From: Acidiferrobacteraceae bacterium
Lineage (GTDB): Bacteria > Pseudomonadota > Gammaproteobacteria > Acidiferrobacterales > SZUA-150
Reading direction: 5' to 3'
DNA: 34,617 nucleotides
NCBI GenBank assembly: GCA_003228915.1
Contig: QIGL01000011.1
Location: forward strand, 1 to 34,617
Positions 5,008 through 34,617 of this stretch are shown in pieces. Under the pieces are notes generated by a model. It worked only from the letters and a program-made list of their open reading frames with translations, was not told the origin of the DNA and ran no database searches. A program made the position numbers and the translations under genes. Within the stretch, counting starts at the first letter, position 1. Each line of letters opens with the position of its first letter.

Positions 5008-5421
5008 GTGCCCCGAGTAAAAAAACGCAGATCCGATTGCCCGATTAATTTCGCACTGGAAATTTTTGGTGATAAATGGTCGTTACTGGTTATTCGCGAC
5101 CTGATGTTTATGGGCAAAACAACTTACGGGGAATTCCTGAAAGGACCTGAGGGGATCGCAACCAACATACTGGCAAATCGCCTGGAAAAACTGGAAACGG
5201 CTGAATTGATTGTCAAGGCACCGGATCCAGACAACGGCACCCGGTTTGTTTATTCGTTGACCGAACGGGGTAAAGATTTAATCCCGGTCATGCTGGAAAT
5301 TGTAAGCTGGAGTGGCAAACATGACCCCAAAACCCCTACCCCAAAAGCAATGCTGAAACAGATCGCCACGAACAGGCAGGCAGTGATCAGCGAGATCCGG
5401 AAAAAACTAATCTCAACCTAA
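5008..5421 (+). CDS. HxlR family winged-helix transcriptional regulator
   Basis: A 137-residue DNA-binding protein with the HxlR hallmark: an early Cys (CPINFALEIFGDKWSLLVIRD, Cys11 of the protein), the region MGKTTYGEFLKGPEGIATN and the winged-helix section NRLEKLETAELI. Members often sense oxidative or electrophile stress through that N-terminal Cys, which is inference here. It starts at GTG with no visible Shine-Dalgarno; the predicted promoter would place transcription start almost at the GTG, so the message may be leaderless. A related 3' fragment is found beyond the NHL gene at about 7784-7897. Confidence 0.88.
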   Translation: MPRVKKRRSDCPINFALEIFGDKWSLLVIRDLMFMGKTTYGEFLKGPEGIATNILANRLEKLETAELIVKAPDPDNGTRFVYSLTERGKDLIPVMLEIVSWSGKHDPKTPTPKAMLKQIATNRQAVISEIRKKLIST

Positions 5422-5547: not shown

Positions 5548-7665
5548 TTACTGAATGGCGCGGACAGTCGCATTACTAGTGTCGGTAATAAAGAGCCGGT
5601 TGCCGTCAGTAGTAATGCCTCTCGGATAATTAAACGATGCTGCTGCACCAACACCGTCGGCCGATCCAACAGTATTCGCCATGCCCGCAACCGTGGAGAC
5701 GACGCCAGTCGTAATCACAATTTTACGCACGGTGTTGCCGAACTCATCTACGACGTACAGGTTAACACCATCACTGGTAATCTGCCCAGGATTGTTAAAT
5801 CTGGCCGCGGTGCCGATACCATCAAGCTCACTTGAAATACCGTCTCCCGCCAGCGTGGTCACTACGCCGGTGGCGATGACAATGCGCCGGATTCTGTTGT
5901 TACTAGTGTCTGCTACAAAAAGATAGGTGCCATCGGTGGTAATACCCCCCGGATAGTTAAACAAGGCCGCCGCACCAGCACCGTCAGCAAAGCCCGAGGT
6001 AGTCGCACTACCGGCCAATGTGGTCACATCCCCGGTGGCGAGAACCATCTGGCGAATAGTGTGGTTATTGGTATCGGCGATATAAAGATTAATTCCGTCA
6101 GTAGTTATGCCACTGGGGACATTGAACCTTGCAGCAGCACCCATACCATCTACGATTCCAGACATAAAGGCAGTACCGGCAATGGTAGTCACATCTCCTG
6201 TGGCGAGAACCATCTGGCGAATAGTATTGGCACCTGAATCCGAGAGGTACAGGTTAGTGCCATCGGTGGTAATCCCCTGTGGGGAACTGAACCGGGCACT
6301 GGTGCCATTGCCGTCTGCAGAACCTGCACTATTGAGTCCACCTGCGATTGTGACCACGTTATTGGTAGCAATCTCAATCTGTCGAACTACTTTATTCACA
6401 TTATCAACAAGATAAACATAGGTACCATCCGAGGTAAGATTACGCGGTGAATAAAATCGCGCATCGGCTGCCACCCCATCCGTCCCGGCTGCAATACTGG
6501 CCAACGTTGTGACATTGGCCCCCGCAATCGCCAGTTGGCGAATTGTAAGGTTGCCACCATCAACAATATAAAGATTGGTGCCAACGCCAGTGATGCCGGT
6601 AGGATACCGGAATCGGGCTGCGTTGCCCGTGCCGTCGTCTGAACCAGATGTATATGCCGTACCTGCCGGCGTGGTCACCATGTTTGTAGAGAGATCTACC
6701 TGGCGAATAGTGTGACTGTTATTTGTCACATACACATTGGTGCCGTCAGTGTAAACCCCGATTGGCGTGTTAAATCTCGCTACCGTTCCAGCGTCACCGT
6801 CGGCTATGCCAGAACTACCCGCCAAACCTCCGGTGTTTACCATGCCCGTAGAAAGGACTATTCGGCGAATGGTGTGGTTTTTACGATCTGCCACATAGAG
6901 ATTGGTGCCATCCGTGGTAATGCCATAGGGGTAATTAAAACTAGCCACGGTACCAATACCATCGGCGCTGCCGGAAATGCCAACCGTGCCAGCAATGGTC
7001 GTAACCACACGTGAAGAGAGAACCATTTGGCGAATGGTGTGATTCGACGAGTCACTAATATAGAGGCTGGTCTTATCTGTGGCAATGGTAATACCGCCCA
7101 CCGAGCCAAACTGAGCCAGAGTGCCAATACCATCAGTGGTGCCAGAGGTGCCATTACCTGCAATGGTGGTCACCGCACCAGTGGCAATCACAACCTGGCG
7201 AATGGTGTAACTCCAAAGACTCGACACATATAGATTGATGCCATCCGTGGTAATGCCAGTGGGAAAACTGAATCTTGCAGTGGAACCAGTACCGTCCGCG
7301 CTGCCCGGTTGCCCGGCCTGTCCCGCAAGCGTAGACACCACACCCGTGGCAATCACGATCTGGCGAATAGTGTGGCTAGTAATACCAGCAACATACAGAT
7401 TGGTACCATCAGTCGTGATATGGGCTGATGGTGCAAAATTGGCTGCCGAACCGCTACCATCCGCACTCAGCGCTGTGCCTGCGATCGTACTCACAGCACC
7501 ACTTAAGCTAAGGGTGTTGCCCTGAAGCGAACCACCCATTTGAACCGGAGGAGAACCAGGTGAACCCCCGCCCCCACCCCCGCCGCTACTACTACTGCCG
7601 CAACCCTGCAGGGTCAGTAAAGAAATGATTATTATAAATGATATAAATAACGTGCGAATGTTCAT
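5548..7665 (-). CDS. NHL-repeat beta-propeller lipoprotein
   Basis: A 705-residue lipoprotein. It opens with a signal and lipobox LLTLQGC (Cys at about 22), then a Ser/Gly/Pro-rich linker with seven consecutive Gly. The rest is a ladder of twelve units of about 53-56 residues, each with a TIAG-like strand, a DG.G.AA.F.P segment, GITTDG.NLY and a .TIRQ...ATG.V turn. This is the NHL pattern; twelve blades would fit two six-bladed propellers. No enzyme domain is visible, so a binding or scaffold role at the outer membrane or surface is likely. Blades 5-7 are the most degenerate. It sits between hxlR and an hxlR fragment, and ends at a strong terminator. Confidence 0.85.
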   Translation of the reverse strand: MNIRTLFISFIIIISLLTLQGCGSSSSGGGGGGGSPGSPPVQMGGSLQGNTLSLSGAVSTIAGTALSADGSGSAANFAPSAHITTDGTNLYVAGITSHTIRQIVIATGVVSTLAGQAGQPGSADGTGSTARFSFPTGITTDGINLYVSSLWSYTIRQVVIATGAVTTIAGNGTSGTTDGIGTLAQFGSVGGITIATDKTSLYISDSSNHTIRQMVLSSRVVTTIAGTVGISGSADGIGTVASFNYPYGITTDGTNLYVADRKNHTIRRIVLSTGMVNTGGLAGSSGIADGDAGTVARFNTPIGVYTDGTNVYVTNNSHTIRQVDLSTNMVTTPAGTAYTSGSDDGTGNAARFRYPTGITGVGTNLYIVDGGNLTIRQLAIAGANVTTLASIAAGTDGVAADARFYSPRNLTSDGTYVYLVDNVNKVVRQIEIATNNVVTIAGGLNSAGSADGNGTSARFSSPQGITTDGTNLYLSDSGANTIRQMVLATGDVTTIAGTAFMSGIVDGMGAAARFNVPSGITTDGINLYIADTNNHTIRQMVLATGDVTTLAGSATTSGFADGAGAAALFNYPGGITTDGTYLFVADTSNNRIRRIVIATGVVTTLAGDGISSELDGIGTAARFNNPGQITSDGVNLYVVDEFGNTVRKIVITTGVVSTVAGMANTVGSADGVGAAASFNYPRGITTDGNRLFITDTSNATVRAIQ

Positions 7666-33533: not shown

Positions 33534-34617
33534 ATGTTCATACCCTACCGCCCTCGCATAAAAATCACCCGGTTCCCCTGGATAACCGTCATTGTGACAG
33601 GGCTCGTTGTCTTAATTTACGCCGCCCAGGAAAGTAATGAGCAAGAAGTTATCGATTCCGCGGTCGCTTATTGCACCGGGGAAATTGCCGAGACGGTAGA
33701 ATTTGTCCAAAAACAATATATCAAAGACGATTCAGCCTGCTGGGAAGTTCTCGCCTATACCTATATATCGGTATTTCCCGAGGAACATGTACAGGAGTCC
33801 CTCGATACCATTCGCGCCGCGGGAGATGAAACATCGGCCCAGGATTTTTTACGCTATTACCGCTCCTTTGCCGCCCAGGCACCGGGGTATCTCACGGGCC
33901 GGCTTTGGCAAGAACAGGGCAGTTTTAATCCGCTGAAAATGCTGAGCGGGTCATTTGCCCATGCCGACTGGGATCATGTAATCGGCAACTTGTTCTTTTT
34001 TGTTTCTTTTGGATTGGTAGTAGAAGCCATCGTCGGCGGCATCATCTATACCGGCTTAATCCTTGGCTCGGCCCTGTTTATTGGTACCCTGGGCAGCCTG
34101 CTTCAGTTTGGGTATATCACCGGCGCCACGCTTGGCTTATCCGGCGTGGTCTCGACCCTGATGGCGCTGGCTGCCTATCTCGCCCCGCGCGTCAAAATCA
34201 ATTACTTTTATTTCTTTTTTGTTTTTATCGGTGTACTGAGCTATCCCTTGTGGGCGCTGATTGTCTGGAATGTCGGTTGGGATTTGCTTGATTTTATTTT
34301 TTTTCGGGATGTCAACAATATCAATTACACCGCCCACCTATCCGGCGCCATATTTGGTTTCTCCGTCGGCCTGCTCCTGTTTCGAGATCGCCGCAAATGG
34401 GTCAAGGAAAATCTCATCCCGGACGAACGACCCTTAACTGAAGATGAACCGTGGTTACACACGCTCAATGCCATTGGAACCGTGGTTACACACGCTCAAT
34501 GCCATTGCGGGTATTCCCGTCGTAATTTATTTTGTCTTGATATACACAATATTGGCTTTTGTCCTGGTTACCTGGTTCGTAAAAACATTCGCCATCCAGT
34601 TGTTGATCGCCGCCCCC
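33534..34617 (+). CDS. Rhomboid family intramembrane serine protease, frameshifted and partial
   Basis: The frame opens at an ATG (33534) and runs off the window. It encodes a rhomboid with a large N-terminal insert after the first membrane segment. Catalytic features are intact: HADWDHVIGN (His143, His148, Asn152), GLSG with nucleophile Ser203, and AHLSG with His268. Near residue 305 a 31-bp tandem duplication shifts the frame: after it the original frame reads implausible Cys/His-rich sequence, while the other frame continues with a clear membrane segment (AGIPVVIYFVLIYTILAFVL). Without one copy the gene would be normal. The stop codon is outside the window. Confidence 0.85.
   Translation, partial: MFIPYRPRIKITRFPWITVIVTGLVVLIYAAQESNEQEVIDSAVAYCTGEIAETVEFVQKQYIKDDSACWEVLAYTYISVFPEEHVQESLDTIRAAGDETSAQDFLRYYRSFAAQAPGYLTGRLWQEQGSFNPLKMLSGSFAHADWDHVIGNLFFFVSFGLVVEAIVGGIIYTGLILGSALFIGTLGSLLQFGYITGATLGLSGVVSTLMALAAYLAPRVKINYFYFFFVFIGVLSYPLWALIVWNVGWDLLDFIFFRDVNNINYTAHLSGAIFGFSVGLLLFRDRRKWVKENLIPDERPLTEDEPWLHTLNAIGTVVTHAQCHCGYSRRNLFCLDIHNIGFCPGYLVRKNIRHPVVDRRP
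34446..34507 (+). repeat. 31-bp perfect tandem duplication inside the rhomboid gene
   Basis: Unit 34446-34476 is repeated exactly at 34477-34507 (each begins GAACCGTGG and ends GCCATTG). As 31 is not a multiple of three, two copies break the reading frame. Either a recent slippage-type mutation or an assembly artefact could produce it. Confidence 0.95.

Follow-up and report, generated by a model that had tools for sequence, protein, structure and literature searches.

The Rhomboid Gene and Its Tandem Duplication

The window analyzed here, 34,617 nucleotides in length, is the entire contig C17 of a draft assembly comprising 116 contigs and 2.66 Mb. At its right side, on the forward strand, lies the 5′ part of a rhomboid-family gene (33534–34475), whose product aligns with orthologs and matches the Pfam rhomboid domain PF01694 at residues 136–284 (E value of 2.6e-15; 57.3 bits against a gathering cut-off of 22.6). 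Candidate catalytic residues, Ser203 (within GLSG) and His268, are each encoded upstream of the duplication described below. By virtue of its domain score and these candidate residues, the ORF beginning at 33534 can be classed as a rhomboid protease with predicted activity.

As assembled, the gene holds an exact, 2.0-copy array of a 31-bp unit at 34446–34507, detected in the window by TRF with a 100% match and no indels. This result confirms the original prediction of two exact units, with copy 1 at 34446–34476 and copy 2 at 34477–34507, both on the forward strand. Since only ~1e-14 exact 31-bp tandems would be expected by chance in 34.6 kb, the array is far beyond what chance would produce. 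The right edge of the window is also the end of C17, and the duplication lies just 110 bp away from it, in keeping with an earlier suspicion that a contig end was nearby.

Codon 305 had been proposed as the point after which the frame shifts. The window does contain the shift, but codon 305 is where the first 31-bp unit starts, and the conserved frame is left only after residue 314 (nt 34475). Thereafter, the shifted frame remains open up to the end of C17, giving 361 aa with no premature stop in the window. The frame beginning at 34477, EPWLHTLNAIAGIPVVIYFVLIYTILAFVLVTWFV..., agrees with the orthologs, so the claim that subtracting one unit returns the gene to a frame entering a hydrophobic segment was right.

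One Copy in Another Contig and in a Same-Genus Genome

When the last 318 bases of C17 were used as a query, a second match was found at the end of C112, a 3,055-bp contig of the same assembly. Read as its reverse complement, C112 starts at the base equivalent to 34386 and thus overlaps the end of C17. It contains the 31-bp unit once, and its frame is open, continuing into Sel1 repeats (PF08238) before reaching a stop. The flanks that the two contigs have in common are identical. Just past the single unit, at a segment corresponding to 34508–34543 of C17 (forward strand), seven codons differ, four of them synonymously, and C112 therefore looks like another strain’s allele (allele B, with allele A being that of C17). 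Allele A is itself probably real: some of its differences from B are synonymous, and apart from the second unit it would pass as a strain variant. A separate 12-bp tandem duplication is found in C112, as is, 3′ of the gene, a metallophosphoesterase-like ORF; similar DNA lies downstream of the ortholog in G004, a metagenome-assembled genome of an uncultured member of the Acidiferrobacteraceae belonging to the same genus (CAJVXY010000003.1).

A comparison of the gene in relatives had been suggested along with the original prediction, and the G004 ortholog proved to be intact. Its product, 83% identical and 542 aa long, contains both a rhomboid and a Sel1 domain, and the gene has a single 31-bp unit and lacks the 12-bp duplication. 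Remoter orthologs, with open frames of ~530–580 aa, showed no repeat at the duplication site. The original headline of a disrupted rhomboid protease gene probably does not hold for the organism, in which the gene is probably that of an ordinary, intact rhomboid-Sel1 protein. The intact gene would most likely span ~540 codons, and its product would be an intramembrane protease of the rhomboid type that ends in a Sel1-repeat domain.

A second protein of the rhomboid-Sel1 type is encoded in the same genome (C33:10226–11098, minus strand; 558 aa; 41% identity), and it has a counterpart in G004.

k-mer Length and Contig Boundaries

Matches between contig ends in this assembly were mostly exact runs of 91 bases, with 33 cases among 73 contigs (66 of them whole when taken, and with the masked contigs C113–C115, which read as N, left out of the count). 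Because exact 91-bp end overlaps dominate, the k-mer length of the final assembly was most likely 91. The 33 overlaps are mostly end-to-end and, as such, are blind to the next base.

Repeats were also observed at or near several contig ends. Positions 1–168 of the window belong to a dispersed intergenic repeat family with the core GGTCGGAATGACAAACATAT and 56 matches in the genome, and the left end of C17 falls inside this repeat. Positions 2207–3175 of C109, a contig whose ends share 91 bp, encode a Y1 transposase (IS200-like) whose tail shows a weak DnaA-like helix-turn-helix. Transposases of this kind are often tied to REP-like repeats, and it is conceivable that this one is related to the dispersed family. 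A heptamer tandem, (CCACTAG)n, occurs at the ends of C83 (1–91), C76 (1–69), and C69 (start), and is long enough to halt an assembly at k = 91. Finally, C53 appears circular by its 91-bp end overlap, but rather than a plasmid it looks like a cluster of ribosomal, rpoBC, fusA, and tuf genes that was cut at a repeat, which may be another copy of tuf.

The boundaries of the rhomboid gene’s two contigs can be read against this k-mer length. The 91-mer that opens the reverse complement of C112 (its positions 1–91) is identical to 34386–34476 of C17, on the forward strand. It stops exactly where unit 1 does and thereby marks the fork between the alleles. The next base is C after unit 2 of C17 and G after the single unit of C112; one-copy versions of alleles A and B would therefore fork exactly at this 91-mer. 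After unit 1, C17 continues with G just as C112 does, and the shared run is 92 bases, unlike that of a true fork at k = 91. At the other boundary, the last 91-mer of C17 (34527–34617, forward strand) starts where alleles A and B reconverge, provided that the 12-bp duplication of C112 is disregarded; with that duplication counted, the two share only 74 bases. Because fork and reconvergence both match one-copy alleles, the two contig boundaries fit a graph from which both duplications are absent.

This geometry bears on the possibility that a real 31-bp duplication arose recently in the allele-A lineage, truncating or altering the protein past its rhomboid core. Tandem duplications of ~31 bp do occur, and the remainder of allele A, with its partly synonymous differences from B, has the look of a plausible strain variant. 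However, a truly two-unit allele A would have G as its next base, placing the k = 91 fork one base past the start of C112. The relatives also carry a single copy, and unrelated genes, including polA, are broken at similar positions in the same assembly (see below), such that a fresh duplication is very unlikely.

The boundaries bear as well on the notion that C17 and C112 are genuine paralogs at separate loci, the former with two units and the latter with one. A rhomboid-Sel1 paralog does exist in the genome, but it is the protein of C33, with 41% identity, and C112 instead opens with the 91-mer of the fork, provides the 3′ portion of the gene that C17 lacks, shares identical flanks with C17, and carries the metallophosphoesterase-like ORF after the gene as in G004. 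As C112 continues the C17 gene, its status as a paralog was rejected, and the chance that two loci are involved is negligible.

The Same Fault at Other Forks

Comparable faults were found elsewhere in the assembly. On C96, an exact 38-bp tandem duplication (5217–5292), situated 259 bp from the contig end, throws an alpha/beta-hydrolase-like gene out of frame, and the unit is present in one copy in C2 of the same assembly and in G004. C2 starts with a 91-mer that finishes at the end of the first C96 unit, and the shared run is again 92 bases; this duplication is probably an artefact of the same type as that of C17. In C94, 8 bp are missing near position 5854, at a 91-mer fork with C91, and the frame of a gene that we take from its translation to be polA is broken. 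The shared run is once more 92 bases, and both C91 (1–368) and G004 are intact at the site. A further pair, C78 and C54, differs in length right at its fork, and the 12-bp duplication of C112 counts as another instance of the fault. Thus, indels lie at the join in the strain-allele forks examined among the contigs taken (C17/C112, C96/C2, C94/C91, and C78/C54). No such indel pattern was seen at C80/C50, the sole case that is not allelic but reflects a dispersed repeat.

This recurrence is pertinent to two readings in which the two-copy state would be a living one. First, the population could conceivably mix two-unit allele-A cells with one-unit cells, with the rhomboid tail and Sel1 domain being reversibly lost in part of it. 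A genuine mixture, with allele A in one-copy and two-copy forms alongside a one-copy allele B, would be compatible with the fork evidence too. Nevertheless, a mixture is disfavoured because it leaves the same fault in unrelated genes unexplained, and it is considered extremely unlikely. Second, the units could act as a reversible slippage switch, with cells toggling between one and two units and thereby gaining or losing the Sel1 domain and the membrane tail while the rhomboid core is kept. A 31-bp change does shift the frame, and one-unit and two-unit copies are both present in the assembly. However, the one-copy C112 also differs downstream, in the seven codons beside the units, and for this reason C17 and C112 are strain alleles rather than two states of one sequence. 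Moreover, there is no repeat tract at the site in G004 or in the remoter orthologs, and the two-copy state sits at an assembly fork as do the assembly’s other errors. With the one-copy contig being a different allele and the relatives lacking the repeat, phase variation was rejected; the likelihood of a switch is vanishingly small.

An Assembly Artefact as the Best Explanation

Taken as a whole, the sequences make it highly probable that the second 31-bp copy (34477–34507) is an assembly artefact, generated from a population in which two or more strains were present. This reading is favoured because C112 and the sister genome carry one copy and because similar errors break other genes of the assembly. 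C112 lacks the indel, the duplication’s first unit ends where the 91-mer overlap ends, and the fault recurs at unrelated loci. Of the three options originally offered for the locus, an assembly error near a contig end is thus strongly supported by the single copies in C112 and G004, the fork geometry, and the other forks; the reversible switch found no support, and the fresh null mutation is disfavoured.

Mechanistically, an assembler working with a k-mer of 91 would have come to a fork immediately past the 31-bp segment, at the point where the strain alleles part. The shared trunk may then have been joined imprecisely to the allele-A arm, with the 31 bases at the join being written twice. Presumably, the software step at fault was one of joining, and the source reads would hold one copy.

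The duplication is biologically unimportant in that the gene is probably intact, and its value is one of caution. In the assembly studied, conserved genes (rhomboid, alpha/beta hydrolase, and polA) are broken by exact short duplications or the loss of a few bases where 91-mer forks lie close to a contig end. When a frame-breaking tandem duplication is located no more than a few hundred bases from the end of a contig, it should be checked against the other contigs of the assembly before it is called a mutation or a switch.

Comparison with Known Systems

Literature searches on rhomboid-Sel1 proteins and rhomboid phase variation, and on assembly duplications at contig ends, yielded nothing directly relevant. 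The gene itself resembles those of rhomboid proteases (PF01694) with a C-terminal Sel1 domain (PF08238): the GLSG serine and a later histidine are encoded in the window, and Sel1 repeats are present in the G004 ortholog and in the part of the gene continued on C112. Within the family and order, there are orthologs of ~530–580 aa, and, relative to such proteins, the duplication is the sole oddity found.

As to the fault, many apparent bacterial pseudogenes have been found to be technical in origin, with the purported pseudogenes being bona fide genes (PMC11017572). The present case is similar in that a conserved gene seems broken in a draft for technical reasons and is intact in relatives. It differs in that the earlier work dealt mainly with coverage, read quality, and the choice of assembler in isolates, whereas the cause here looks like the imprecise joining of a strain fork in a metagenome-type assembly.
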